Source: Diphasiastrum complanatum
Taxonomy: Eukaryota > Streptophyta > Lycopodiopsida > Lycopodiales > Lycopodiaceae
Assembly: GCA_029204225.1 (NCBI GenBank)
Contig: CM055106.1
Location: 48,497,337 to 48,561,336 of the forward strand
DNA length: 64,000 nt
Direction of reading: 5' to 3'
Position 1 is the first letter of the stretch, and every line of letters begins with the position of its first letter. The notes beneath the pieces are model-generated. The model was not told where the DNA came from. It saw only the letters and a program-made list of their open reading frames with translations, and searched no databases. Made by a program: the position numbers and the translations under genes. Below are positions 12,981 through 63,150 of the stretch, one piece after another.

Positions 12981-12982
12981 AG

Positions 12983-13635
12983 AATCTTATGATACGTCAA
13001 TCATAATTCACAGGATTCCAAAACCATACTTAATCATTAAATATTACTGGAGTACATGTGCAAAATACCACTAAGGAAATATAAAAATTATTCTAAAATC
13101 TTTTCCCCAAGGAAAATTACTAGATTTCAAGAATATTCTTCCAATCTGATCCTTAACAAGATTATGAGTTATTCAAATTTTGTGGTCAACCAAGTAATTG
13201 AAGACATAAGGCATACCAAAACCATTTTAACACCCGTCTTTACAACATAAACTTTATACAATTACCTAGAACAACTTCTAGAGATTACAAAGCTCTGCTG
13301 AATTCCAACTGAATTCAGTGGTAATCCTTGATATTAGTTAAACTCTTTCATCCAACATGATCTCATTGGGATACATTCAATAACTTAGAGTCTATTTCCC
13401 ATTCGAGAAATATTCTATACCAAACATTTCCTATATTCTATGCACACAGCTTTTATAGATGAATCCTAATGATTCACAAATCATGTGTCTTATAAGCAAT
13501 ATAGATCAAAATAAACAGTTCTTGGTGAATTCTCTTCACATTGCTTATTCAATCAATTAACTTTTAATCAGGAGTAATCCAATTACTCAAGTCAATTGTA
13601 AATGATTTAGAAATCTCAAATGTCTAGGTGCCAAA
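12983..13635. repeat. gypsy LTR-like repeat, copy A
   Basis: This stretch matches 19470-20110 along almost its whole length with moderate divergence, and its last 170 bases also match 16949-17120. Shared landmarks are CTTAATCATT near 13028, ATTCTAAAATCTTTTCCCCA near 13090, TGAATTCCAACTGAATTCA near 13300, AATCATGTGTCTTATAA near 13480 and AAATCTCAAATGTCTAGGTG at 13611-13630. All copies lie in the same orientation. The link to gypsy rests on the neighbouring copy B, which adjoins a gypsy 3' end. Confidence 0.65.
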
Positions 13636-14140
13636 TTCGTATATCCCAGAACAACACTATATTTGGATCCTTCAAAAAACCGGTGCTATGCAATTTTCTT
13701 ATAGGGATTATTTACCAATCCAAAATACTTAACACAATCACATTTACAACTCGGGTGTCTCATTTTCTTCCACCCTTGGGCTTTTCGGTTACCCGAGAAA
13801 TTTCATCAGCTAAGGCATCGAAAACTCCTTAAACACAAGTAAATGCTAGGCTACTTCCCTTTTCAGTTACCCCAGTTTAAGCATTACTTCGTATATTCTG
13901 GAACAACACCACATCTAGATCCTTCAAGAAATCGGTGCTATGCAATTTTCTTACAGGGATTATTTACCAATTCAATTATATAACACAATCATATTTACAA
14001 CTCAGGTGTCTCATTTTCTTCCACCCTTAGGCTTTTCGGTTACCTGAGAAATTTCATTAGTTAAGGCACCAAAAACTCCTTTGACACAAGTAAATGCTAG
14101 GCTACTTCCCTTTTCAGTTACCCCAGTTTAAGCATTACTT
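13636..14140. repeat. 252-bp tandem duplication
   Basis: Two direct copies at 13636-13887 and 13888-14140. Both begin TTCGTATAT and end CCCCAGTTTAAGCATTACTT. Between them only scattered substitutions are seen. The first copy is continuous with LTR-like copy A, so the duplication arose inside repeat sequence. Confidence 0.85.
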
Positions 14141-16940
14141 TGTTAAAGTTGCCTGTAATTAATGGAAAATTCGTAAAATTTGGATTCGGGTACATCTTTT
14201 ATGGTATTCGACACAAAAGTTTTTTCAAATAAAGAGCTACCTCCAAATATTATCAATTTTACTCCATTAATTCATCAGAAAATCACTTTAACAAGTCTCT
14301 CAAAAGCTTTTGCTTGTCCCAATCCCAACGATCAAAATCATCGAGAACACAAACAAACCCATTGATGATCGACCATGTTGAAAAGGAAAAACAAAACACA
14401 AACACCATTTAATTCAATTTACTTGGAGTACCGATACTCTAGAGTTAAGTGGCCAAAGCATAATACCTAGGAATCGAATCCCTTTACTGTGTACTTGCCT
14501 GAGAACCGTATACCATTGTTTCATCAAGATCGGTTTAGAGAGGTTTCCCTCCGAAAACCGATTAGTACAACTTGACCACGGATCCAACGATACCAAGTTC
14601 CACGAGACTTGCCTTATGGGTAACTGTCGATGTAACATACAAAAGCCATGTAACTACCAAAAGTTACATTATCCCAAGGTTAACTGTGACAATCGAGCAC
14701 CAAGAAATCAAAATCCCTATAACTGGGTGCTAGTAACTTGAATTTTAGTTGGTTCAAAAAATGATTTTTTCTTAAATCAATTAAAAGCTACAATAAGTCA
14801 AAAGTTTATGACCCTGGGTCGACCGGCATCAAAACATTAAGCCATGCAATTCACAAAATTGCCATTCCCGAAAACCTCATGCAAAAATCGGTAAAGGCCT
14901 ACACTTAGAAAAAAAAGTTGTTCAAGGGTTGTTTAAACCCTCAAACAAATCCTAAGGGTTTCACAAACCATCACTTGGGCACTTGGGCACTGCAGCAGCT
15001 TTCATGGCAGCTACAATCGCGATGGCTGCTCGGCTCTCTACGCACCTCCTGCAGCCGCCGCTCCTCTTGATCAACAGGCCCCAGACGTGACCTTCAGAAG
15101 GAGAGGTTTCTAATCCAGTCTCAAATCTGTCACGAGGAATACGATGCATTACCCTACTGCATCGTGGCGTCGAAAACAAGCTTCTCATTGATCCAACCAA
15201 CGGCTTCCATGCTCACAGAATCTGCTAACAGTCCATGCTGCATTAGCTGCCAATCAGGCCTTCAAAAACGCGCTACAGTTACATCTTTTGGCATCACTAC
15301 CCATGACCTTCACTGGGAAACAAGTCTGTTTCCAGGCTGCAAACAAAATCTGATGTCTTTGGTAGATCAACTCGTATTTTCCCTTCTCAACAAACTGCTC
15401 AATACTCAAGCACAAAAGTAATGAGCTCAGACTTTTTCATGCAACCATCCAAATGTTCAACACACCATTTGTAACAACTATTTACATGTTTCTGTCTGCT
15501 CCAGGTTGATCCACATAATGGATATGACTTCCAAAGAAGTCCCAGATGACTAACATCTTTTAACAACTGTCCAGGGACCACAGAAGGTTAAGAACGATTT
15601 TGGAAAGAGTATTTATGGCTGGTTTCATAGGGTTCACAACACAGGGTTACCTCTCCTCTGCAGAAGATTCGATTGCAGAATATAACAACCTTTGGTGTCC
15701 GTTCAGAAGTTTCAACTTATCATAACAGATCTGCTTTTCACTCAAACATCTCATTGTAACCAGAAAGACAAACAGAAAAAGATGATAAATTGCTTTTATT
15801 GTCCCAAAACAGGGTCACTTCCCACAATCGAACTTCAAGCAATGCACGGAAGAAGGTTTTTTTTCCAAGATTCAGATTGCATGCATCCATTATTCCAAAT
15901 CTTTATCTACTACTTTAAAGAATGGCAAACTTACAATATCCATTGAATGTTTTTAGTGTGCATCAAAAGGGGATTAGATTGGTAAGAAACTCAAATCCAT
16001 GACATGCACCCATTAAATTCAAGAATTTCAGCTAAAGTCGTTTGTTCATTCTAGATAAATTGATTCCTCATCGATATAGCAACAAAACATCCTGCAATAA
16101 AAATCTGAATCTAATCTGTCCAAAACATTATGGATTCATGCAAATTATTCATCCCAAAAATCAGATTTAGACAAGAAAGTAAATCTACTCATGGAGATCA
16201 TTCTACTTCAAATGGAAACTTCCTCAATGCATTAGAGAAAATGCGTATGAATTCAATCACTAATTCTTAGCATATCTAACAAAATCAAACAAGGAGAAAA
16301 GCACTCTACCACCAAGTTTGAAATACATGCTTTACGATAGTGAATCCAAACCCAATTCCATTGAGAAATTAACACTCCAACCCGGGATGTGAGTCCAAGT
16401 GCCCTCATTCCAATTTGGTGTAGAACTGGTTTCCATCCTACCCAAGACCGCACCTTAGCGGGCTCTAAAACCAATGTAAAGACCACCAGGGCCCCTAAGA
16501 TGAGGATAAGAAACACAATAGGAGACACTATGGAGCAAAACCACCCAACCAAACCTAGATCAATCTTGGATCTAGCCCCCAATCCATGCCATGTGATAGC
16601 AAGAGGAGAAGAGAGCAACCGATAACCTAAACCCAAGTTGTCGACAAGAGAATCCCTACCTCAATATATAGAGAGTAGTTTTTTGTGCATGAACCCATGC
16701 AATCCCCATGCAGTCCAACTATAAATAGGTCACATCTCTTCAAGCAGTCTTCTCGCCTATATCTGTCACACGTGCATGCACTACTCCATATGTCTCAATT
16801 AGAGTGTTTGGGTCCTCTCAAGGCTATTAGTCACAAACTGGCCTTGACATGGAATTAAACCTCGGCGTGACTAATAATCTCGAACACTGGAGGGCCGGTC
16901 TACCATATTAGGACTATTCCATGTCCTTAGCTGAATATGG
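14141..16940. other. no gene recognised; probable retroelement non-coding sequence
   Basis: No frame here carries a recognisable domain. The longest, 127 codons on the minus strand at 16253-16636, has a hydrophobic stretch (FCSIVSPIVFLILILGALVV) but no homologue that I know. Near 16610-16940 the text (CATGCAATCCCCATGCAGTC, ACTATAAATAGG, GGAGGGCCGG) resembles the LTR sequence at 17950-18330, so part of this stretch is probably a second, diverged gypsy LTR. Confidence 0.4.
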
Positions 16941-18328
16941 TTGTACCAAGAATCCTAATGACAATCATGTGTCTTATAAGCAATATAGATCAAAATAAAT
17001 AGTTCCTGGTGAATTCTCTTCACACTGCTTATTCAACCAATTAACTTCTAATCAAGAGTAATCCAATTACTCAAGTCAATTTTAAATGATTCAGAAATCT
17101 CAAATGTCTAGGTGCCGAATTCGTATATCCCGGAACAACACCACATTTAGACCATGTTCTAAATCATAACTAAGTTAATGAATTACCCTTTCCACAGAAA
17201 GAGTCATTAACTTGCAAGTAATTGTTCCAAGCATTACTTGTTCATATGTTTATGCACACTAACTAGTTTAAGTATACAATATAAATTCAGTTTATAGGAA
17301 ACACATAGTAGATCCAAAATATTAGGATGTACATTACCAACATATCCAACTATGTTCCTATATATAAACATAGGCTATAATCTGGCAAGTTCATCTGTAA
17401 TCCGCATATGTTACTCACATAATCACCGAGAATCTTGCTACTCAGCTACAAAATAACTCTATTCCTCATGAGTAAATAACATATATGGGAAATCTCTTAA
17501 TTGAATAATTCCACAATCATAAGTTTTCCAACCATCATAATTTTACTAACAAAATTCCTTCAACCAATCAACTTACTTCAAATCTTAGTATTCAAACCAA
17601 GATTAGCTGACTTATACAGACATCTTTGGACAAAATATTAACATTAAAGCTTTATTCCCACCTGATCCAATCCAATAACAAAATGGTACTTGGCAAAACT
17701 GATCAGTGAAACCTTAAATTGAATCTTTACCATCGCTATCCATATTCATGCATATCTCGTAGCTCATTACCCCCAAATTTCCTCTAGTTCTTGATTATTC
17801 AAAACAATCCCTAGAGAGTTCCTCTATTCCACCTGAATAGTTCTGTAAGGATTGCCAATTGAAGATCCAAATAGGTCCTGTTGCATGTAACCAAAAGGAC
17901 ACTTGTGGAGAAAAACCACCCAACCAACTAAAAATGGCTAGTCAATACCCTTACCACGTCACCCCCATGCCATGGTGAATGAATGCAAGACAGGAGGGGC
18001 TCCTAGCTTCAAGGATCATAAAATTCAATAGGTAGATGGGCGAGTTTCCACTGAAATATATTCTCTCCCGTGAGGATAGAATATTTTTCTTAGTATCCCC
18101 ATGCAACCTGAATAAGCAATTGACCTCCTATTCTTGCATTATAGCAGTCAAACACCATGCAAGTGCTCCTATGTCCAATTATAGGTCTGGGCCCTCATAT
18201 GATTATTAATTATTTTACCGTCCAAGCCCGGAATGACGCGACATAACCAATAACCATACACACTTGAGAAACTAGCTATCCATGTCAGGAATTATTCCGA
18301 ATCCCTCATACTGGACATGGATGTAACA
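16941..18328 (-). mobile_element. gypsy LTR-like sequence, copy B
   Basis: Read on the minus strand, a polypurine tract AAGGGGAAAAG (18341-18331) is followed two bases later by TGTTACATCC (from 18328), the normal junction of internal region and 3' LTR. Sequence from 18328 downward is therefore LTR. The part at 17140-17730 matches 20120-20713. The same TGTTACAT start after a purine tract recurs on the plus strand at 48245, so both belong to one gypsy family. The distal LTR end is not resolved. Confidence 0.6.
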
Positions 18329-18408
18329 TTCTTTTCCCCTTAAACAAATTACGTCCTCAGAACGAGCAAACTAGGGAAGATCCACATGTGTATGCTTTTA
18401 ACTTTTTC

Positions 18409-18885
18409 TCACAAATTTTTATCCTCAATCTGACCAACCAACCTAATCAAGTACTCAGAGATAGAACGATTTCTCAATTGTTTATCTATGGTTCTGAGAA
18501 CTCTTTTAGGTTCCAAAGGTGCATTGAGCGATAAGTCTTCAAAATGGGTAAAAGCTTCAATATATCCAACTATCATCATCATATGAACTAAGTTTACATG
18601 ATACACTAGATGATCTTGAAGATCAAGTTCAAAAGCTAACAAATCAGTCTTTTCACTTTCACATTTACCTTGAAAATCATTATCCTTAGTCTGACTTCAA
18701 TAATCAAATAAGTACTTAGAGTTGGAATAATTCTCCAATTATCTATCTCTGAACTGAAGTACTGTATCTTCCTTTAGAAGTACATTAGGCAATACATTTT
18801 TCTATTGGGCTTGTTCTCTCCAATCTAGTAACTTCACCTTCATCTAACCTCAATCTACATGAACCACTGGGTGAAATATCACCTT
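18409..18885 (-). pseudogene. Ty3/gypsy pol C-terminal relic, duplicated
   Basis: On the minus strand from 18642 the frame reads YHVNLVHMM, then EDLSLNAPLEPKRVLRTIDK and QLRNRSISEYLIRLVGQ. This is the post-integrase tail of gypsy pol, where the H-V-S-L-L-K and R-Q-L-R-N-R-x-I-x-E blocks are typical. A second, more decayed version (FHPVVHVD, VLPNVLLKEDTVLQFRD) lies upstream in the element at 18650-18885, so the tail is present twice. The polypurine tract and LTR start follow within 70 bases. Confidence 0.65.
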
Positions 18886-19469
18886 ACATCATAAATCAAT
18901 ATTCAAAAATTAAAGAAACAAACAATTATAGTCTAAGACTTTCCACAATTTCTTGCAGACTTGTCATAAATGTTTCTTGGTACAAATACACTTAGATTTA
19001 TAAAAAATTAAAGTATAACAACTCATCCTACCAAAATCTCTTAGGATATCCATCAAGATAAAAATGACTTTTAACTCAATCCTAAGATACTCTCTTGAGG
19101 TAAGTGCTCTATTCCTAGCATCTCATGCAAGAAAATAGCAACTATACAATCTTGATAGATTTGTTTGTCTCCTAACTAACCGGAGATTTAGGTTGAAAAC
19201 AATACACAAGCATTCCTTGACTACAATCTATAGTAGAATTTCATCCACTAAGGTAAGCAAATTCTTCATGAGTAACAAATTACTTATCATGAAAATGCTT
19301 GTGAGATAAACACAACCTCAAATATGTGATGGTGCAAAGAAATTTAGATTTCAAATATCCCTAAATCCTTGACTTTCCCAATTGATCAAAAATTACTTAT
19401 TATCTTAAGAATCATCACATTTTCTTATAATCTTCTAATGTCCATTAATTATCAATTTATGTAAACATT
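18886..19469. other. no gene seen
   Basis: AT-rich sequence without a usable frame, lying between the gypsy tail and LTR-like copy C. It is probably decayed element interior. Confidence 0.4.
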
Positions 19470-20713
19470 TTGAATCTTATGACTTTTCAATCATAATTTA
19501 GAGAAATCCAAACACATACTTAATCATTGAAAGATACTGGAGTATATGTACCAGATATCACTCAGGAAATATATATTTATTCTAAAATCTTTTCCCCAAG
19601 GGAAATTACTGGATTTCAAGAATGAGTCTTCCAATCCGATTCTTAACCAAATTATGAGTTCTAAATTCTACAGTCAACCAATTAATTAAAGACCACTTTG
19701 ACACCCGTCTTTAATAACATAAGTTTTATACGATCACCTAGAACAACTTCTAAAGTTTAAAAAGTTCTGTTGAATTCCAACTGAATTCAATGTATTATCC
19801 TTGATATTAGTTAAGCTCTGTCATCTAATATGAGCTCATTATGATACAGTCAATAACTTGGGATATATTTCTCATTTAAAAAATATTCTATATCAAGAAT
19901 CTCCTATATTCTATGCACACAACTTTCATAGATGAATCCTGATGACTCAAAAATCATGTGTCTTATAAACAATATAAATCAAAATGAACAGTTCATGGTG
20001 AATTCTCTTCACACTGCTTATCTAGCCAATTAACTTTTAATCAGAAGCAATTCAATTACTCAAGTCAATTGCAAATGATTCAGAAATCTCAAATGTCTAG
20101 GTGTAGATCTTAATTATACTAGTATAACACCACATTTAGATCCTCTTCTAAACCACCACTAAGTTAATGAATTATCCTTCCTACACAAAGAGACATTAAC
20201 CTACAAGTAACTGTTCTGAACATTACTTGTTCATATGTCTATGCACACTCACTAGTTTAAGTATACGATATAAACTTACTACATAGGAAACACATAGTAG
20301 ATCCACAAGATTAGGACATACGTAACCAACATATCCAACTATGTTCCTATACCTAACATAGGTTATAATCTGGCAGATATATCCATAATCTGCATATGTT
20401 ACTCACATAACTCACTGAGAATCTTGCAACTCCAGCTACAAAATAACTCCATTTCTCATGAGTAAATAGCATATATGGAAAATTTCTAAAGTAAAATAAT
20501 TCCACATCACAAGTTTTCCAACCATCATACTTTTACTAACAAAATTTCTTCAACCAATCAACCTACCACATATCTTAGTTTTCAAACCAAGATTAGGCTG
20601 ACTTATGTAAACATCTTTGGAAATAAGATTAAGATTATTCCATCTAATCCAATCCATAACAAAATGGTACTTGGGAAAACCTATCAGTGCGAACCTAAAT
20701 TTTAATCATTAAC
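19470..20713. repeat. gypsy LTR-like repeat, copy C
   Basis: The first 640 bases match copy A (12983-13630), and 20120-20713 match copy B (17140-17730), so C joins both halves and is the most complete copy. Similarity stops near 20713, just before a TATA box and an unrelated frame. No clear TG...CA ends were found. Confidence 0.65.
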
Positions 20714-27300: not shown

Positions 27301-27769
27301 ATTATAAAATATGCATATTTTGGTTTTTGATTAGTCATGATGTCTCAAATTACAAAATCATACACTGATCATGATTTTTTTGGTGCAAATAAGAGCAAGG
27401 TAGGAAGAGCACCTGAAATGCAAAGATATAAGAACATCAATCGAAATTGAAGATGCTTGAATATATAAAATCTCAATATATTTTATAAAATTTTCTATAC
27501 ATTTAAGATACAAAAGGCTCATCCACATGAAGGGAGACCATTCATTTTTCTGTATCATATTTATTTTGATCTATGATCTCTATATCTAGTTCTCTAGCTG
27601 GAAGAACCTTTGGTGGACTACTATCTGCATTATCAATAGCATAGGAATTATCCACCACGATCTCTAATGCTTCATGCTGAAAATGCATGATCCCTTGCAG
27701 GCATGTAGGAAGCTGAAAAAGCAAAGCTAATAAGGACTTGTATTAGAAATATATGTAGGAACCAAGCAC

Positions 27770-28480
27770 TGTTTATGAGGCAATGTCAACACCTGATGCT
27801 GACCAGTGGAAAGCAGCCATGGATGCAGAATTCGATTTTCTGATTGAGAATCAAACGTGGACTATAACTGAGTTGTCAAATGATCGAAATCCGATCCCAT
27901 GCAAGTGGTTGTTCAAAGTGAAATATGATGCTGAAGGAAAAATAAATCGATACAAGGCCAGATTGGTAGCCAAAGGCTTCTCCTAGATTCCAGATCTGGA
28001 TTATTCAGAAACCTTCAATCCTGTAGTAAAGCATGCTTCAATTCATTTACTTCTTTCCTATGCAGCTGCAGTTGACCTTGAAGTTCATCAAATGTACGTC
28101 CAAACTACATTCCTCAATGGCACCATTGAAGAGGAGATCTACATGTCCCAGCCAAAAGGATATGAGCTAAAGGGTAAGGAGCACCTAGTGTGTAAAATTC
28201 ACAAAGCTCTGTATGGTCTGAAATAGTATCCAAGAGCCTGGTTCAAAAAATAAATACATTTCTAATCGATAATGGTTTCATTCCAAACTCGATAGACTCA
28301 AATGTTTATTTTAAGTCCGTATCGGATTCCTTCATAATCATCACTCTTTATGTTGATGACACATTATTGTTTAGTAACAATTTAAATTTGTTGAAGGATA
28401 CCAAATGCTTGTTAGCACATGAACACAAGATGACAGATATGGGTCCTGCTCACTACTATCTCGAAATTCAGATTTTTTGA
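27770..28480 (+). pseudogene. Ty1/copia reverse transcriptase fragment
   Basis: The frame reads DADQWKAAMDAEFDFLIENQ, TWTITELS, KWLFKVKYDAEGKINRYKA, RLVAKGFS, a stop at 27985, then LDYSETFNPVVKHASI, NGTIEEEIYMSQPKGYELK, KIHKALYGLK and LYVDDTLLFSNN with the YVDD catalytic box intact. It ends near MTDMGPAHYYLEIQIF. The same blocks recur in the same order at 54600-55320 with close similarity, so both derive from one copia family. Confidence 0.9.
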
Positions 28481-28765
28481 ATTCGACCCAACAGACAGAT
28501 TTTCATCAGCAGCAAATGCTTTTCGGTCTTTGACCATAAAGGCTCCTTCGTCCATGTCGATGTTGGGAGATGTTGCGACTGCATTCGCCTATTGATTTGG
28601 TTGCTTACTACATTCTTAGCTTTGAGAACCCTGTAATCCTGGATCTCATGGTTAGTGTGCTTGCAATACTTACAGAACATCTTCTTATTTGACTATGGAT
28701 TTGATTATTGTTCTTGACTTTGAGTTGGTTTCTGATGAGCAGATGGCGATAGATTGGTAGTGTGT
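28468..28765 (-). pseudogene. copia gag zinc-knuckle fragment, inverted
   Basis: On the minus strand MFCKYCKHTNHEIQDYRVL is a copia gag knuckle whose last Cys is replaced by Tyr. It abuts the plus-strand polymerase fragment with an overlap of about a dozen bases at the junction, so an inversion or independent insertion brought them end to end. A separate knuckle of the same type lies at about 29250 in the same orientation. Confidence 0.6.
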
Positions 28766-37647: not shown

Positions 37648-40600
37648 ATGCAATACAACGGTCCACATATAAAGCAATTACCTCGTCGTCTACGTCAAGG
37701 CTTAAAAGAGATGATGGAAATTGATGAGCGCATTAATCAAGAGACTAATGCATCTGAATCTAGCTCATCTAGATCTACTTCTTCGCAAACAAGTTCCAAT
37801 GATGAAAATGAGCTTCCAATGAATGATGAATTTGAAGTCATGGGAGACATGTTGGATGATATGTACGAGAACAATATTGTAGCTAGACACAATGAACAAG
37901 ATGAGGAGGCACTTTTGTCTAAAAAGAAAATTGCGAGAAGAATTAAAGACCTCATTGTATCCTGGAGCAAAGACATCTCGTTTGGCGACTTCTCTATTTC
38001 TATTAAATCTTCAAGCCAAATATAGATGGAGTGACCAAAGCCTCACATCATTATTTGAGTAAATTTTTTTTTCATCTACTTGTCATTTTTGCTTTGAAAC
38101 AAAATTTACAATTTGGACATCTAGTGAATTTTTTTTTTACAATGACTTCTTTTGTCATGTACAAACTATTGAAAAACAAAATTCTCCCAGAAGGGAATGT
38201 CATGTCTGAAACAAGAGATGAGGCACGAAAGATGTTGACTAACATCGGGATGGACTACAAGCAATATCATGCATGTCCAAAAGATTGTATTTTATATTGA
38301 GGAAGGTACGAATCACTCGAGAAATGTCCCATTTGTGATACTCCTCGATATAGAGATGATTTGCAAGGGGCAACCATTCCGTGCAAAGTTTTACGACATT
38401 TTCCAGTAATTTCACGATTGCAACGTTTATTTCATTGTAAATCTCTTGCACAACTTATGGACTGACATGCACACCATACCTCTACGGATGGGATAATGAG
38501 GGTACCTTCAGATTTACCTGCATGGAAACACATCAACAAAGAGTATCCAAGCTTTGCCAATGAGTCAAGAAATGTGAGATTTAGTCTTGCAACAGATGGT
38601 GTGAACCCCTTTGGTGTACGAGCAACTACGTGGTCCATTTGGCATGTTTGCTTGGTAAATTATAAAATTCCTCCTTGGTTGAGTACAAAAAAGGGACACA
38701 TTATGTTGGCACTTTTAATTCTTGGCCAACGCAAGGTTAAAAACATGGATGTGTATCTTGAGCCACTTATTGACGAGTTGGAAGATTTGTGGAAGGGGAT
38801 AAAAGCATATGACATTTCGCGCCACTTACATGAGAGGGAGTTTACACTACATGCCATTGTAATGTGGACAATGCATGACTATCCAGGATTAGGTGAATGC
38901 TCAAGTAATTATTCAAACAATGTCTATCTTGTGTACATAGGAGTTTGTTTACAGTTACATACAACTAGTAATTCTTGACATTTACATGATATACTACAAT
39001 GGCTATAATTATTCTTTGACATATACTTTTTTTAATAGTGATTGATAATATTGGGCAGGCTTTCAAACGACTGGAAAAAATGCTTGTTTTTTGTGCGGGC
39101 CAAATCTTGTGGGAAGATACTCTTTTAGTCTCAAAAAAGTGGTTTATGAAACTCATCGTAAATACTTGCATGAAGGTCATCCATTCAGAGACACTCATAG
39201 AAGAGGTTTTGGAGGAAGAGTTGAGAGAGAGATGCTTCCAAAGAGGATGTCCGTGAAAGATTGGCAAATACTATGGGAGGAATCTCAAGCAAAGCCAATC
39301 GATGGTATGAAAAGATTATCTATATTTCATTGTTTGGAATATTGGAATAACCTTTTGATTAATCACTTACTTGATCTCATGCACATATTTAAAAATGTGG
39401 GTGAATCTATTTGGAAACACTTGATTGGTGAAAAAGATACCATTGCTGCAAGGCACGATCTAAAAGAATCAAACACCAAAAAAGAATATTGGAGAAAGGA
39501 TGGTGAAAATCATGCTCCAAAAGTACCTTGGACATTCACAAAGGAGGAGCTTAACCATGTGCGCTCCATTATTCATGACATTAGAACACCAACTAGTTTT
39601 GCCCATTCTCTACGGTCATCATTCACAGTGGATGTGAAGTTGCAAGGTCTCAAATCTCATGATTGGCTAAAGATGATTCAATTCATCTATCCATTGTCAA
39701 TTTGTGGGTGCTTGTCAAAAGATATTTGTGAGACCATATACAAACTATCAATCATTGTCAGGTATTTACATGTACTTGGTGAATATTTCTATTTAGTATT
39801 TATTGATTGGAAATTCAAATAGACATAAAATGGATTAAATATGTTGTAGATGGATGTGTTCAAAAGAAATCCTTGAGCTGGATCTTTGCAAGAGACATGA
39901 GGATATGGTGGAGATTGTGTGCATGTTTGAGAGATATTTTCCGACTTCCATCATGAACTCACAAGTGCATTTATTGGTGCACTTGGTTGAAGAAGTTTCT
40001 ATTGCTGGTCCAGTGCACACTAGGTATAAGTGCATAAATTATCTTTTGCATGTGTATTTAAACTAAATCAATTGATACATGAACTCATTAAATAAAACAC
40101 TTATTTTTAACCATTTGTGACTTTTTAGGTGGATGTTCTTTATGGAAAGGTACATGAAAGTCTTAAAAGATTTTGTGCATCAAAAGGCAAGGCCTGAAGG
40201 TAGCATGTCAGAGGGATGGTTACTACATGAATCTCTCTTTTATGTTACTGAAATTTTGCACTAACTACATCCATCTGCTCCACTATTGTGGCGTGATGAG
40301 GAAGCCGAAGAGGTAACTAGGGAAAAACCTCAAGGGATGGGAAAGGTCCATAGGTTGGCACCCTTCCAACGAGAGAAAAATTCTACATTCATGCTTTATA
40401 ATTGTGGAGTTATGGATAAATGGTTAGACGTATATGAAGAAGAAAAAAAAAAAGAGAGCCTTGTCTAGAAAGCGCCAACGACAGAATAGAGGTAGACACA
40501 TGGCCTCTAGCTCACATGATCTTGAGCCATTGCCCAAGCAATGCACTATAGAGTGGATGCATGACACACTACAAAAAGCAACAAAAGAGGGACAAAAAAT

Positions 40601-53324: not shown

Positions 53325-55990
53325 ATGTCTCACATTGGTAACTCTTCATCATTATCCAACGAGGCTAGAAAAATTGGCAAGTTCAATGGTTCTAACTTCT
53401 ACTCTGGAAGTTAAAACTCTGGATGATGTTGATAGATAGAGATCTTTGGGATGTAGCAGAAGGTGCTGACCTGAAACCAGAAGATGGTGATCAAGCAAAG
53501 GCATGGAAGATCAAAGATTAGAAGGCCTTAACATGTATCACACTCAATCTGGAAGACTCCCAAAGATCCCATGTTACCACATGCAAAACCTCTATGGATG
53601 CATTAGATTTGTTATCAAATCTCTATGAGACTCATGATGTAGCCACTAGATTATATCTTAGAAGGAAGTTCTTTACTCTTAGCATGTCTGATTCTACTGC
53701 TATCACTTCTCACATCAACAATACTAAAGCTAAGGGCAAGAATATTGAATTCTTCAAGCAATTCAGAGCATCTACAGAAAATCAGACCCAGAGAAAAATC
53801 AAAGCTCTATGTACTGATGGAGGGGGAGAATACATCTCCATGGAGTTCAAAGAATTCTGCAAGGCCTGTGGAATACATCAACAATACACCACGAGCTACT
53901 CACCTCAGTCCAATGGAGTAGCAGAATGGAAGAATCGGACACTTATTGAAGTTTCAAAAGCGTGATGGCCCATGCTTCTCTTCCAAAAAGATTTTGGACC
54001 AAAGTTGTCACTACAACTGCCTACTTGCAAAATCGATCCATCACTAAGGCCCTGAATGGCAAGACGCCCTATGAGGTGTGGACTGGATCAAAGCCATCAC
54101 TCAAATATATTTGAGTGTTTGGTTGCATTTCCTATGCACAGATCCCTGAAAATCTAAGAAAGAAGCTGGATGACAAGAGCAGAAAATCGATTTTCATAGG
54201 CTACTTCCCAAATCACAAGGCATACAAGCTCTACAGTCTGATCACTCAGGAGACATTCACAAGCAAAGGTGTCATATTCATGGAAGACCAATTTTTTTAT
54301 CACAAGGGAAAAGCTTAAGAACATCCGACCCAAGGATCGAATGGTCAAAATTCGATCCAAGAGTCAAAAATTCAAAATCCAATCCAAGGGTCAAGAATTC
54401 AAAATCCAATCCAAGGGTTGAAAATTCAAAATCCGACCCAAGGGTTGAACAACAAAAAATCAATACTGACTCGGACAGTGAGTCATAACCTCAATGAATT
54501 GAACAACATCAAAAGGTCAAAATTCAACCCAAAAGATGAAATCAATCCAGATAGCCTCCATCCTGATTCATGGATGATTTGACCTGCTACTTTGTGCAGG
54601 AACCAAACATAGTACTTGATGAGGCAATGACAACACCTGATGCCTAACCAGTGGAAAGCTACAATGGATGTACAATTCGATTCTCTGATCGAGAATCAAA
54701 CTTGGACTATAACTGAGCTGCCAAAGGATTAAAATTTGATTCTATGCAAGTGGTTATTCAAGGTGAAGTATGATGTCGAAGGTAAAATAAATCGATACAA
54801 GGCCAGATTGGTAGCCAAAGACTTCTCCTAGATTCCAGATCTGGATTATTCTGAAACCTTCAGTTCTGCGGTAAAGCATGCTACAATTCATTTTCTTTCC
54901 TATGTAGCTACAACCGACCTTGAAGTTCGTCAAATGGATGCCCAAACCGCCTTCAATGGCACCATTGAAGAGGAAATCTACATGTCCCAGCCAGAAGGAT
55001 ATGAGCTGAAGGGTAAGGAGCACCTAGTATGTAAAATTCACAAAGCTATGTACGGTTTGAAACAATATCCAAGAGCCTAGTTTCAAAAGATTAATATTTT
55101 TCTAATCGAGAATGGTTTCATTCCAAACTAGGTAGACTCAAATGTTTATTTTAAGTTTATATCGGATTCCTTCGTAATCATCACTCTTTGCGTTGATGAC
55201 ATGTTACTATTTGGTGACAATTTAAATTTATTGAAGGATACCAAATGCTTGTTAGCACATGAGTACAAGATGACTATATGGGTCTAGCACACTACTGTCT
55301 CGAAATTCAGATTTTTGAATTTGACCCAGTAGATAGATTTTCATCAGTCAGCAAATATACCTCACCAATGTGCTGGGAAAATATGGAATGGCCGAGTGCA
55401 AACCGAGCCACTTTTCACTCAACCCTGTTTTGAAGCTGTCAAACGAGCAATGTCCAAAATCCGAGTTAGAGAAAGTGGAAATGGAGCAGTATATATTTCA
55501 CTCCATAATCGGTTCATTGATGTATGATATGCTCTACACTCGACCCGACCTTGCTTACTCAATCAGCTCTCTCAGCCAATTCTTTCAAATCCAGGTCCAA
55601 CCCAGTGGAAGGCTCTTGTGAAGGTCACTTATGCAGATTGGGCAAGAGATATTGATACAAGAAAATCGACCTCTTGATTTGTGTTCTTGTTCAATCAAGG
55701 CTTGATTTTATGGAATAGCCGAAAACAGACCTTAGTAGAACTATCCTCCATAGAATCAGAATACATAGCAACCACAAATGCTACCAAGGAGGCAATTTGG
55801 CTGAGGAACCTACTTGTAGATATCGAAATTATCTAGTCACACCCAACGACCCTCTACTGTGACAATCAAAGTGCCATTGCACTATCTTTGAATCTGAGAT
55901 TCCACTCTCAAAGTAAGAATATTGAAATCAAGTATCACTACCTTAGAGAGACTGTACATAATTTTTGTACTTATCACTTCTCTACGAGAG
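53325..55990 (+). pseudogene. Ty1/copia element, internally deleted and stop-ridden
   Basis: Gag starts at ATG 53325 (SLSNEARKIGKFNGSNFYSG) and reads to RLYLRRKFFTLSMSDSTA near 53690. At about 53722 it jumps directly into integrase (NTKAKGKNIEFFKQFRA, LCTDGGGEYISMEFKEF, YSPQSNGVAEWKNRTLIE), so the knuckle, protease and half the integrase are deleted. A repeat-rich linker and RT follow in several frames (KWLFKVKYD-like text, CVDDMLLFGDN near 55190), then YHSIIGSLMY-like FHSIIGSLMYDMLYTRPDLA, DWARDIDTRKS and NLRFHSQSKNIEIKYHYLRE. RNase H breaks off after TYHFSTRA near 55990, and the H3-like frame begins 67 bases later. No 3' LTR is seen. Confidence 0.92.
54324..54450 (+). repeat. 27-bp coding repeat in the copia linker
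   Basis: Four head-to-tail copies of CCAATCCAAGGGTCAAGAAT-type units encode NPRVKNSKS, NPRVKNSKS, NPRVENSKS and DPRVEQQ. They lie between integrase and reverse transcriptase, where copia polyproteins are variable. The related gag linker at 29300-29400 also contains short internal repeats. Confidence 0.8.
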
Positions 55991-56056
55991 CAGTCCATTC
56001 TTCCCCTTTCTATCTCGCTCATCGCGCAGAAGTGCGATACCTCTCAGACTACCTCT

Positions 56057-57073
56057 ATGGAGAGGAGAAAGCAAACAAAGAGATATTTTTTCTCTGCTGA
56101 TGCTTCCTCAACCCCTACCATTTCCATAAATCCTCTGACTCAAACTAGAAGGTACACCCGCAGTAGGTAGCTCTCTAATATTCAAAAATATCAGAGGTCA
56201 ACCAATGACACAATTCAGAAAGCTCTATTCTACTGTGCTGTTCGCCACATCACTAGGGAAGATCTCAGTAGTTTCACACCAATGACACTTTAGTGCCTTC
56301 AAGAGGCTGTTGAGGATTATCAAAGCCTTTGCTTTGAAGATTCATTTTTGCTCGCTGTACATGCCAACAAGCGAGTTACAATTATGCCTAAAGATTTCCA
56401 ACTACTGTATAGGATGCAGGATAGATACTCCAAATTACACATGGCTCAACCATCTACTCCTAGACCTGATCCAATTGATAGGACTAACCTCCTGACCAAG
56501 AGTCCTAGGAAGCAACCAACCCCCAAGAGAGCCCCGAAGAAAGCTAGGACTATTATTACAAATTCTTCTCAATCTAACCCTGTTCATAATGTAGATATTG
56601 TTGCACTAGATATGGTTGTAAACAAAGCTACAACCATTTTGGATAATCATGTTACTCATGTAGATACTGCTCATCCACCTCCTCCTCCTCATTCAAATTT
56701 CTATACATATATAGATTCGGATGAGTATCTTCAATTTGAGAGTGACATATTCGATACTGTAGATAGAATCGGAGTTCCATTTTGTTCTAGATTAGAGGAA
56801 CTTAATTTCAGTATAAATTATAGAATTATTGATGGTTTGGATCTCAAAAACACACGGGCTTCTATCGATGATCCTGTGATAGAGTCTGGGGTCACACTCT
56901 TGCAATTTGACATTGCAAGAGATTCGAACAATGAAGTTTTGGTACTTAGTAATTTCTTGCTTCAGGCAATCAAGGAGAAGAACGACACTTTGTCACACAG
57001 TGTCTTACTAGTGGATTCACACCAGCTACAAAATACTTACTCATGCCTTATCATACCAAGTAAGATAATTTAA
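56057..57073 (+). pseudogene. histone H3-like protein with long C-terminal extension
   Basis: ATG at 56057 opens a 338-codon frame broken only by TAG at 56168 and 56291. It starts MERRKQTKR, aligning with MARTKQTAR of H3 and keeping the K4 context. After a Ser/Thr/Pro-rich tail come the H3 alpha-N and alpha-1 part (LSNIQKYQRSTNDTIQKALF against [20 protein letters not shown]), alpha-2 (CLQEAVEDYQSLCFEDSFLL, AVHANK) and the H3 hallmark RVTIMPKDFQLLYRMQDRY. Loop 1 is one or two residues short and HANKRV has one extra residue relative to HAKRV. A roughly 220-residue extension follows: a basic stretch (KSPRKQPTPKRAPKKARTI, a possible nuclear signal), HPPPPPHS, an acidic part (YIDSDEYLQFESDIFDTVD) and an unrecognised segment to TAA 57071. 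H3 proteins pair with H4 in nucleosomes; normal H3 has no such extension. Copia RNase H breaks off just upstream. I call it a pseudogene because of the two stops, with recoding or sequence error not excluded. Confidence 0.85.
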
Positions 57074-57338
57074 ATGCTTCTTGTTGTTTATAGCTTTATC
57101 ATTGGCATTATCAATGGAAATAGTTCTCAGAATTGCAGCTAATGGACTCTCTATCTTATTTTGCAGTGAGCACTGGAGTTTAAACCTGATATCTATTAAT
57201 AGATCCGTAGATAATGTTATTAGAGTGTTTTGTGTAAAGATGAACTCGGCTTGTAATACGCATAAGGATGTCGATTTGATCTTTTCATATATATGTAAAT
57301 ATATTCTAGCAGATGTTGGCCAGACAACTGAATGGTAG
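57074..57338 (+). other. exon-like open segment after the H3-like frame
   Basis: CCAA/GTAAGATA at 57059-57068 resembles a splice donor and TTATTTTGCAG ends near 57166, so an alternative end of the H3-like gene is possible. The following text (INRSVDNVIRVFCVKMNSAC, LIFSYICKYILADVGQTTEW) is open to TAG 57336. The splice phases do not join the frames cleanly, so the link is doubtful. No family recognised. Confidence 0.25.
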
Positions 57339-57537
57339 ATCGTTAGTCTGGAGGTAAATTCTATCCTTCTTCACAGCATTTTGAAATCAACATTCTAATG
57401 TATTTATTTTATTCTCATTCATTTTGTCTCTTAATTGATGTTTTGTGTGCTGAAGTTTTTGCAGTCACCCCAGCAAAATGATTCATTCAATTATTAATGG
57501 CACACTTTGTATAATGCAAAGTTATTTTTTGAGTGGT

Positions 57538-57789
57538 TCATCCTTCAATAGGATGTTGATATTTTAGCATGAGCTCTGTTATGATAAAATCAAGCATCAA
57601 ATGTTCTTCCAACTCAACCATAGTCAAATATTCTTCATTATAAATAATGCTTATCTCCATTCGGTTTGTGTGACCATTTAGTTCAAAGTCTTGATCTAGT
57701 GATAGCCATGTACTGTCAATTTTCTTGTATCTCTGATAGCTAAATGTGAGACTGAGCATTTGTTTTTCAATATGATAATGGAAGATCAT
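57538..57789 (-). other. unrecognised 83-codon ORF
   Basis: Minus-strand ATG at 57789 opens 83 codons (MIFHYHIEKQMLSLTFSYQR, IDSTWLSLDQDFELNGHTNR, MVELEEHLMLDFIITELML). The composition is protein-like with an acidic amphipathic end. No domain recognised; it may be an exon of a relic. Confidence 0.25.
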
Positions 57790-58351
57790 TGAAGACTTTT
57801 TAATCCTGCATTCTATATCGATACAAAGGTAGTCAGATCCTCTAATTCAACTAGTTTACCTTTCAAAATTAGGAAATCCTTCCGACTAATTCGTTGTTTC
57901 AAATGACTTATGTGGAAAACAACTCCAATAAAAAGATCTAGCTGATAAGCGATCTAGTCATTACAGGAGTTCCAAAATTAAAAAAAGACTTTTTGTAAAG
58001 ATACTTTCATTTTTTTCTCTAGTTTTGACCATCACCTGGCCCAATCAAAATGCACAAATTTGAAATCTACGTAACGTAGCTCAAATAAACTGAGAAATAA
58101 AAATACATTATAGCAAACTTTGAAATTTGTGTCCGGGTAGCATGGACGTATCCCATTGGTTTGCTCTTCCTGCCCGAACACGTGCTAATCTGCCCAACGT
58201 CAATAACTCAAGTTAAATCTACTTAACTATGTTGGTTAGTATAATTTGCTAACCATACTAGTTACAATTATAGAAATATAGTATGCACAATTACTAAAAA
58301 TATAGAATGCACAGTAACTGTGACTACTGTGGCATTCACAATTGATTAAAT

Positions 58352-59078
58352 GTGATACAAAAAATTGAAATTAAGTATCATATCAGAGAGATTTTTGGCG
58401 CCAAAGGTTTGAAAATAGCAATTGCAAAGAGACCAAGATCTACAGTTGAGTCTGTGATTTTTTACAATAAGAAAGATGACGATGATAACGGAAGCCAACA
58501 AAATATACGAAGAATTCATGGGTGTTGTTGCATCCATCATCAAAGGGCAATTTTTGACAAAAGAAAAGAGCGAAAATTACACACAAATCTTTAAGTTATT
58601 GGAAAGCAAAAATTCTGGAGTTTAAGACTACTCCAGGAGGTCACTCGATATCAAAAGTTTTAGTACAACATGTATATATGCATTCTGAAAATAAAAGTAC
58701 AAGATATCAATCCTCATGATCATCGAAAATGTAACTATAAGTATATCAAAACGTATGCACTCTACTGCAATCATAGGTGTTTTTCGATTGATGCTCTTCA
58801 AATTACAATTTAAATTATTCAACGTTTTTTGTCTTTTAGATTTATATCCATCATGCATAAGTGAATGGGAGCCAGCACAATCACTTGCAAGAATATTGGA
58901 TGTGATTCACTCTGATGTTGGAAAGCTGCAATACAGAGGAAGAAGCCCAAAGGAACTTGTAGATAGTGGTATATATTTTTGTGAATCTTTATATATGCCA
59001 CAAACGGATGGAGGTTTTGACAAGCTAGAAGCAATTCCATTGCCTAGTTTTCAAAGTGATGAGTTGGCCTACTCCTGA
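58352..59078 (+). other. exon-like segments of unknown function
   Basis: Three segments look coding. 58352-58500 reads IEIKYHIREIFGAKGLKIAI and STVESVIFYNKKDDDDNG. A 49-codon frame from ATG 58476 to TAA 58623 reads ITEANKIYEEFMGVVASIIK, GQFLTKEKSENYTQIFKLLE. After TTTTTTGTCTTTTAG, a good acceptor, 58840-59078 reads YPSCISEWEPAQSLARILDV, IHSDVGKLQYRGRSPKELVD and GIYFCESLYMPQTDGG to TGA. The codon and residue use is better than in the flanks. I cannot name a family or show that they belong to one transcript or to the H3-like frame 1.3 kb upstream. Confidence 0.3.
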
Positions 59079-60689
59079 CAGTATTGTTTCTAAATTCTTC
59101 AGATGCAAGCTACTCATTGATGTTAAAAATGCCATGAAGATTAGTACGAGTTAAGTTGGTTTATCTCATTGCATATATTTGTTGATTTTTTTTCAAGTGT
59201 TGGTGTTCGAAGGACACCAACTTTATTTGTTTGCAAAGATTTATCAGATGAGACTTTGTCAGATCCCATGGATGAAGGTTGGGATAATAAAACAATAACA
59301 CAAAGGAAACAAGTTCTTACAATACTATACAGAAACTTATTTGCTTGACCTTAATCTTATCTAGAATGCAATGAGACAATTTAGTGATTTGATAAAACCA
59401 TTCAGCACAAGGCATCATGTCTTCTCGTTGTCCTTAGGAGATGACTAATGATATTCATGAAAATATTCTTTCACTTATAAATGGCATCTCTAGTGGGTTT
59501 AACAACCATGCTAGCATGCCTCTGTGACACCTTGTAGCTCAATAATAGTTAAGATGTTTATATAGGTCCATGTCTATATAGTATATCTTTTAGGTCTACA
59601 TTCCACATTTAAGAAGAATAATAATCCATTTTATATAAGGTATTTGGATTAGTGTCATACTACAATTAGTTATACCTAACCTTGGAGTAAACTCTCATGA
59701 GTGGTAAAGGAGGCCTAGCTGTGGATCTGTGTATTACATGTGAAGTTCACACCCTCGTAGTATGTGTTCATAATCAATGGTTTGGAAGTCTTAAAACCCT
59801 TGCTTGGGGATTTATATGGAACTAGCAATGACTCACTGAGTAGTGAGAAATGTTACTTAGCTAGGCTGCATATGTGTCACAGTGAGGTATTCCAATTCAC
59901 ACCTAGTTGGAGAAGGACTTTAAAGAGTATAAATATACGCATAGGGCTCTCCAATGTGACACTTGATTTTGTGTAGCTACATGTTGCTCGAGTGATATGT
60001 CATCTCTACAATTAGATTGATGGTGGTGGTTCATAGCTTTGGAGTCTAGATTCATCTTATCTAGGTTGGTTGGGTTAATTTATTCTAGAATCTAATATCT
60101 TAATTTGTTATGCTTTGGTAAAACTAGTTGTCTACTAACAAAGGTTTTCGATTGAGTGGAGTTAAATTCTTCACCATTGCATTGGATATAATCAAATATG
60201 GACCCTAAGCGATGTCGTCCCTTGGGTGCATCGTGGCTTGGGAGCCAAAGGCCAGGACAACACTTCTTTTTGGTGCATGCAATAGCATCAACATAAATGT
60301 TGAGGTAGAAAAAGAAGATGAGGAGAAAGGGTGATGTCATGGTTTGTGGTAGTGGCAACGTCTTCAAAGAACCAAAAGTAGACTAACGGAAAAGACAATA
60401 AGTTACTTTTTTTTCATTCACCAAACGTTGGTTGCTAGTTTCCATGCATGCATGATCACTTACATGTGGGATAGTTGGGCCTTTAACACTAAAGTTGTTT
60501 TCAACACACTTTTGTGCGGGTGCACACAAATGTGTGCATAAAACTCTTGGTCACTTGACGAGACATAACATGCCATCAAATATTTGAAATTTCAATCTTT
60601 AAATTGTATGTGGAACTAGACTTGACTCTTCATTGTGTTATCAGAAGACTTAAATTTTTTTCTCTCAATTGATAGCAATTTTCCCCCAA
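59079..60689. other. no gene recognised
   Basis: No frame with a known domain. A minus-strand frame at 60092-60367 (SPFLLIFFFYLNIYVDAIAC, CPGLWLPSHDAPKGRHRLGS) is short and unassigned. Confidence 0.4.
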
Positions 60690-62536: not shown

Positions 62537-63055
62537 CTATCCATCTAAAATTTCTTTAGGTAATTGAGTTAATCCTAAAATAGCTCTAATTGTAGGATCT
62601 TCAATCAATGATGTGGACAGATGTCCCAAAGCAATCTGGTCATGATTCAATGCATTACGATCATGAGTTGGAAATTTGTATTCCTCGGTCATTGACAAGC
62701 AGTTGATAGGGCACAACTCGACGTAGTTTCCACAGAATATGCAAAATCCAAAATCAATTATGCTGTAACTTTTTAATTGCTTCTTTCTTATGTTTTTCTT
62801 GAATTCCCAATCAACAACAAATAAATTAATTGGACATACATGAACACATACTTCACAAGCAATACATTTGTCGAATTCGAAGTGAATACGTCCGTGGAAT
62901 CGTTCTGGTGGAGTTGATTTTTCGTAAAGATATTGAATGGTAATGGGTAAATGATCCATGTGATTCAGGATCACCATGAAACTCTGACCAATGTATTTTG
63001 CGGCTTGTATTGCTTGTTGACCATAGATTTGGAGTCCCTTGACCATTAAAAACAT
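62537..63055 (-). pseudogene. ndhI: plastid-derived ndhI copy
   Basis: The frame aligns over its whole length with NdhI, the 4Fe-4S subunit of the plastid NDH complex. The aligned start is ATG at 63055 ([16 protein letters not shown]); the frame is open further upstream to 63097. The first ferredoxin motif is intact ([14 protein letters not shown]-x2-C-x2-C-x3-C). In the second, [15 protein letters not shown], the third Cys is Tyr, which would lose a cluster ligand. One extra Ile codon is present in SYSIIDFGF. The C-terminus ends [12 protein letters not shown]. Still open, but sequence and location say it is a non-functional nuclear copy. Confidence 0.88.
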
Positions 63056-63150
63056 ATTAAATATCCTGGAATAAATTATTTGGTTTGTGTCTTTCACCTT
63101 ACATATTGAATCAATTTGAACATTTGTAAGAGTTTATTTTAATAAATATT

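Follow-up and report, generated by a model that had tools for sequence, protein, structure and literature searches.

Background

Two fungal transposons that carry H3-like sequence are the closest described systems. In Pyrenophora tritici-repentis a hAT transposon of about 5.6 kb includes an H3-like gene distinct from both H3 and CenH3 and, in the available part of its description, is reported in 26 very similar copies and read as a transduplication with possible drift (PMC3538342). A hAT of about 9.5 kb in Pseudocercospora fijiensis and relatives has captured a canonical histone H3, is RIP-inactivated, ends in a 20-bp terminal inverted repeat (TIR) with an 8-bp target-site duplication and accounts for 784 H3-like copies; a functional H3-like product is not proposed in the accessible portion of that article (PMC6710886). 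The Spy transposons of the PHIS group are described, in the sections available, as TIR elements with one transposase that insert within AAATTT and leave no target-site duplication (PMC4482050).

The plant locus described here contains an H3-like gene, designated H3L, which is probably (a probability of roughly 0.85, judged from comparison of genomic copies) a gene borne by a lineage of TIR DNA transposons and kept by selection. Its element resembles that of P. tritici-repentis in being a TIR DNA transposon with extra open reading frames, one of them H3-like, but as far as the latter is described in the available text (PMC3538342) it differs in its plant host, in the lack of a hAT match and of an 8-bp duplication, and in having two diverged families, long extensions and selection on H3L. 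High copy number and an H3-like sequence within a TIR element are shared with the P. fijiensis hAT, again as described in the accessible portion (PMC6710886). Insertion without target-site duplication is a likeness to Spy, as documented in the sections available, whereas AAATTT was absent from the ten junction pairs read here and the element carries four genes (PMC4482050).

A search of the full-text literature found no plant transposon with an H3-like gene among the papers listed, and the element may already have been described by a different name. The word histone is absent from the main text, so far as available, of a 2026 review of plant gene capture (PMC13317346). Few host proteins are as conserved or as tightly controlled as histones. 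If the reading is true, a mobile lineage with its own diverged H3 under selection would be a clear case of transposon-made chromatin.

A decayed H3-like gene beside a copia relic

The window, the whole stretch of 64,000 nucleotides that was analysed, corresponds to C15:48497337-48561336 within a 1.74-Gb assembly, in which copia elements, a plastid-like ndhI frame and an exon of plant-type CENH3 mark the source as a plant. The H3L frame at 56057-57073 on the plus strand and the features around it are given below, where family A denotes the transposon family to which this copy belongs.

53522..55953, plus strand: copia relic, truncated, spanning gag to RNase H and lying outside the element (from Pfam matches and the RNase H frame)
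55954..57564, plus strand: family A transposon fragment, 5'-truncated, containing H3L (aligned to L065 and L044 from 55954 and to the L016 copy over 56051-57564)
56057..56167, plus strand: H3L N-terminal tail, residues 1-37, MERRKQT... (from the frame reading and copy alignment)
56168..56437, plus strand: H3L histone fold, residues 38-127 (from the Pfam Histone match and an alignment of 21 copies)
56168..56170, plus strand: TAG stop in frame, codon 38
56291..56293, plus strand: TAG stop in frame, codon 79
56438..57073, plus strand: H3L C-terminal extension, residues 128-338, leaving the frame of other copies near 56998
57565..57819, plus strand: second family A segment, past an internal deletion, containing part of element gene 3 (minus strand)
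57959..59295, minus strand: 3' part of the family A element, inverted, with its terminus at 57959

The part of gene 3 was recognised from a frame at 57541-57846 on the minus strand that resembles a minus-strand frame of the L019 copy.

With its stops entered as X, the frame matched the Pfam Histone family over residues 21-120 (E = 4.6e-15; 56.4 bits against a curated cut-off of 26.4), which places it in the histone H3 fold, and its best PDB match was an H3 (E = 4.4e-13). The initial annotation, made from the letters of the window, had described an H3-type N-terminus with KQT, a histone fold and a long C-terminal extension, and each of these was borne out, the frame starting MERRKQT and the extension being real and conserved in other copies. 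Its statement that the frame is unbroken over 338 codons did not hold. There are TAG stops at codons 38 and 79, and near 56,998 a frameshift takes this copy out of the reading frame of the other H3L copies, a departure that is visible because the ending of those copies (..LTSGFTPATKY..PYHTK) is present in the window in a different frame. Two in-frame stops were observed where 2,000 base shuffles averaged 20.9, with 7 as the lowest count, so the frame derives from coding sequence. The window frame is a dead, decayed H3L, a gene that belongs to an abundant lineage of TIR DNA transposons.

The extension alone matched no Pfam family at E <= 10 and nothing significant in PDB (best E 0.069, a designed protein), and as a 14-row alignment its best PDB match was likewise not significant (E 1.3). 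Structure prediction from the sequence of the window protein alone, with Q in place of each TAG, was uninformative (mean pLDDT 33.6). Past the H3L stop, a possible intron was noted by eye at window 57059-57166 (GTAAG...TTTTGCAG). A processed pseudogene was set aside, since no poly(A) was seen by eye after 57073 and the copies have TIRs.

The neighbouring copia relic, also reported initially, is real, with Pfam gag, integrase, SH3-like and reverse transcriptase (RT) matches between 53522 and 55077; H3L does not belong to it. Homology to the H3L element begins only at 55954, adjoining a break in the copia RNase H, and therefore the relic and the element merely abut. This boundary was fixed by the nearer copy L044, the closest relative of the window among the 20 other aligned copies (dS 0.26 in the fold and 0.18 in the extension), and the window sequence upstream scored 18 and 17 against L019 and L016, which is chance level (shuffle 95% = 22). 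The position of H3L just 3' of a copia RNase H would suit an extra open reading frame of the adjoining copia element. That reading can hardly be entertained and was ruled out by the DNA transposon homology from 55954, the TIR-bounded copies, the absence of copia from the compared relatives and the absence of long flanking direct repeats in the 29.5 kb surrounding the L016 copy; nor does the H3L element hold LTRs and pol in one unit, as a copia LTR retrotransposon does.

H3L copies in the genome

A Histone profile search of the genome gave 6,325 first-look candidates, of which about 150 were scored. The 13 best scored matches were canonical H3 (E <= 2.6e-45), and most of the other rows among the matches listed were diverged, at E 1.6e-28 to 3.7e-24. 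The final three of the list were partial and look like ordinary H3 exons. Twenty diverged stop-free loci were picked from these matches and comprised six of family A (L015, L016, L018, L019, L027 and L028) and fourteen of a second family, B.

Copies were also searched using the stop-free stretch of the window frame, which comprises the last 48 fold residues and the extension (259 aa). Among 7,767 first-look candidates, 147 were scored, the window included, all at E <= 3.5e-91; those other than the window were 63-80% identical and each extended to residue 227 or further. The alignment ran from fold to extension in all 147 scored family A matches, and therefore fold and extension form one gene. 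The possibility raised in the initial annotation that the extension is an unrelated downstream frame in all homologues is thus answered for family A, where the two are joined; in family B the extension is absent. Many H3L copies are broken, with stops in the copies listed. Annotations of plant genomes could wrongly count H3L copies as histone genes.

Terminal inverted repeats and insertion sites

Family A copies are alike over more than 8 kb around H3L and have a common 3' terminus. In the L019 copy, a unit of 8,681 bp, the 35-bp TIRs are perfect (CATTAGAGGAGTTCTCAATATCAAAAAGACCCTTT), and the L028 copy spans 9,305 bp with TIRs matching at 27 of 30 positions. The first 32 bases of the family A TIR, at <=2 mismatches, had 990 + 1,034 matches in the genome and family B loci start with CATTAGGGCCCTTTTTGGACTCAAAAAGGGCC (clear in six of the seven checked), a terminus with 858 + 836 matches, the totals of 2,024 and 1,694 being counts of TIR matches and not of H3L-bearing copies; the reversed control for family A and the control for family B each gave 0. 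Right ends of family B were read at TIR pairs only, and one such pair (C3:64723712-64735091, 11,380 bp) encloses an H3 match from the Histone search. With TIRs at both ends of dispersed copies, the element has the outline of a cut-and-paste DNA transposon. The initial suggestion that a mobile element carries the gene was upheld, H3L lying inside TIR-bounded repeats of a DNA transposon and not in the neighbouring copia element.

Ten TIR pairs (six of family A and four of family B) were read at both ends, and none had a target-site duplication of at least 4 bp; a 3-bp repeat was present at one. At L028 the two flanks, joined without the element, read as a single copia gag frame and were 95-98% identical to all 40 places that were scored out of 1,624 first-look candidates, with 35 of the matches covering 220/220 bases, three covering 216/216 and two 219 for 220. 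L028 is therefore a genuine insertion without visible duplication, but both its left flank and its right TIR end in ATG, which could mask a duplication of 3 bp at this site.

Neither an 8-bp duplication in the ten pairs nor a hAT domain in the scanned frames was found. The termini are CATTAG and a 3-bp repeat occurred in one of ten pairs only, which does not agree with CACTA. Nine of the ten pairs were free of duplication as in Spy, but the junctions were without AAATTT. An element with TIRs starting CATTAG, little or no target-site duplication, an unrecognised transposase and four genes may represent a superfamily of its own.

Two side observations were made on element structure. A family A TIR pair 2.6 kb apart at C1:47860002-47862593 is a possible deletion derivative, and diverged tandem repeats spanning about 1.4 kb (L029) lie upstream of the L016 copy at the expected 5' end of the element.

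Gene content of families A and B

At least two families, A and B, carry four homologous genes, identified by tblastn of family B frames against family A elements: one transposase-like gene (best E 9e-81), two genes with no function assigned, namely a minus-strand gene (about 1e-11) and gene 3 (5e-29), and H3L (5.5e-24 to 6.6e-20). In a Pfam scan of 20 element frames only the H3L frames rose above the cut-off, with Histone bit scores of 98.3 for L019 and 98.9 for family B. Matches to DUF676, DUF4292 and MOZ_SAS (E 0.0085-0.029) were all below the cut-off and were set aside as chance. The transposase-like protein has conserved blocks, including YGSL.VW..QGMEKSH, and because it has no significant Pfam match its assignment as a DDE nuclease and the mobilising enzyme is a guess.

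The order of parts in H3L differs between the families. Family A consists of tail, fold and extension, and in family B the fold is preceded by a long N-terminal region that includes poly-Pro and is followed by a stop. The family A extension had no counterpart in the family B loci (best E 0.87) and the family B N-terminus had none in the family A elements.

A captured viral gene had been among the initial suggestions and was rejected. No viral match appeared in the Pfam scans of the element frames, a scan for viral contigs returned nine pattern matches with none confirmed, and nothing observed pointed to a virus.

Relation to H3 and CENH3

Plant CENH3 is encoded by the host, and little sequence follows its fold. 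Compared with reference sequences of plant CENH3, H3L is alike in its H3 fold, diverged tail and Pro at position 63 (five of nine family A rows and all six family B rows), and differs in the extension of about 200 residues in family A, in its altered alphaN and in being multicopy on transposons. The LIP of CENH3 was found in many rows among families A and B and a further locus, L064. In alphaN, Trp replaces GTVA in eight of nine family A rows, in all six family B rows and in L064; the window row has a stop there. H3L has neither the ARTKQTARKS tail nor the RYRPGTVALREI alphaN of canonical H3, and does not end at ERA.

A tree of 25 rows and few columns, in which the CENH3 rows were provisional reference sequences, recovered family A (98/95), family B (100/99) and H3 (95/88) each as a single group, and a branch of 84/92 separated H3 and CENH3 from families A and B and L064. 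H3L did not group with plant CENH3 in this tree, and the joining of A, B and L064 was weak (75/56). One old acquisition from an H3/CENH3-type gene would fit these alignments best.

L064 (C10:9334600-9339600) is a very diverged third H3-like copy with Trp in alphaN and LIP that adjoins a copia RT, and is perhaps a further H3L family.

The initial annotation had also considered a divergent host histone variant. A significant H3 fold, the CENH3-like LIP motif and the KQT N-terminus would suit H3L as such a variant, or as a CENH3 pseudogene family, scattered secondarily by repeats. The genome, however, has 13 strong canonical H3 matches and, separate from H3L, a CENH3-type exon (one was found, apparently followed by an intron, with no further exon in the 5 kb read), and H3L occurs in hundreds to thousands of copies within TIR-bounded units that share gene content. 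Together with the 147 scored copies and the empty site of the L028 element, these results set the host-gene reading aside as very improbable.

Selection on H3L

Family A was represented by 27 sequences (20 loci, six earlier ones and the window), a sample that leans to open frames as the 20 loci were picked mostly for lacking stops. Twenty-one were used, six (L015, L046, L048, L050, L061 and L062) being dropped for frame breaks or missing parts. Pairwise dN/dS was calculated by the Nei-Gojobori method for the 210 pairs, nine of which were saturated in the fold. In bins of rising dS the ratio in the fold was 0.60, 0.30, 0.23, 0.12 and 0.12 (25, 22, 23, 64 and 67 pairs), in the extension 0.56, 0.39, 0.33, 0.33 and 0.31, and in the tail 1.14, 0.57, 0.37, 0.45 and 0.33. 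Seven chosen pairs gave 0.07-0.15 in the fold (bootstrap upper bounds 0.19-0.35) and 0.25-0.59 in the extension (upper bounds 0.44-0.99). Differences fell mostly at third codon positions, with 127/104/350 at positions 1/2/3 in the fold and 327/255/486 in the extension.

Close pairs had a dN/dS of about 0.6, and in distant pairs the ratio fell to 0.12 for the fold and 0.31 for the extension, a pattern expected if selection acts while elements are active and copies decay once inserted. The comparison between copies that had been suggested at the outset thus demonstrated, at the level of gene sequence, that H3L of family A, extension included, has been under purifying selection. Two points weigh against this reading, the lean of the sample to open frames and a dS that within the same pairs was higher in the fold than in the extension (0.51 against 0.21 for L019/L016), recombination between subfamilies being one possible cause of the latter.

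These ratios bear on the alternative that an ancestral element took up a host H3 or CENH3 copy that was then amplified without a role, as in fungal hAT elements. Many H3L copies being broken and the parts of H3L that flank the fold differing between families A and B would agree with such a passenger, and the fungal cases, so far as their descriptions are available, offer a precedent (PMC6710886, PMC3538342). The dN/dS of distant pairs and the retention of H3L in both families, despite divergence of the remaining genes to roughly 30-60% identity, speak against it and render it improbable.

Possible roles of H3L

Five residues of the fold (H113, R116, T118, D123 and L126), which we take to have roles in H4 pairing and in the H3-H3 bundle, were kept in all nine family A and all six family B rows. 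Outside the fold, 20 of 21 copies have K4 in the family A tail; an acidic residue (Asp or Glu) occupies position 9 in 17 copies and Lys in one, and 13 of the 21 have no other lysine before the fold. Methylation marks at K9 and K27 silence plant transposons. As a plant transposon's own protein against silencing, VANC of the Arabidopsis VANDAL elements is known; it is not a histone, and the likeness to H3L lies in the proposed role only.

It is plausible that active elements make H3L, and as the pairing positions are kept, the protein would be expected to pair with host H4 and might be built into nucleosomes, or particles resembling them, at target sites or on the DNA of the element itself. With K4 retained in the family A tail, position 9 usually acidic and other lysines few, chromatin containing H3L could resist the host K9 and K27 silencing marks, the use that we favour, if only tentatively; alongside this, the extension may tether H3L to element DNA or proteins. 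A family A histone of this kind could presumably not take K9 methylation, nor K27 methylation if the tail is aligned as here. Taken as a whole, the proposal that a plant DNA transposon lineage encodes an anti-silencing H3 variant which packs element DNA with host H4 and so blocks K9 and K27 marks is speculative and rather unlikely. A tail usually without Lys at position 9 would, if the proposal is true, be a natural experiment on plant transposon silencing. The K9 argument does not extend to family B, which lacks a KQT tail and has several lysines in its N-terminal region.

The main alternative is that H3L serves transposition and not escape from silencing, through target choice, DNA bending or complex assembly, for example in centromeric or open chromatin. 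It is the fold that families A and B have in common, their tails and extensions being different, and both families show the altered alphaN and the CENH3-like Pro at position 63, all of which would suit a part in transposition; with insertion sites read at ten copies only, we regard this use as possible but doubtful.

Other features of the window

The copia RT region occurs twice in the window, at 27754-28517 and 54595-55356, the two being 86.5% identical. Several dispersed repeats of 200-800 bp, mutually 82-91% identical, lie within 12982-20711. Frames at 38496-39822 on the plus strand resemble what we take to be a CACTA-type TNP2 transposase, and a minus-strand frame at 62537-63097 reads like plastid NdhI and is perhaps, we assume, an insertion of plastid DNA.
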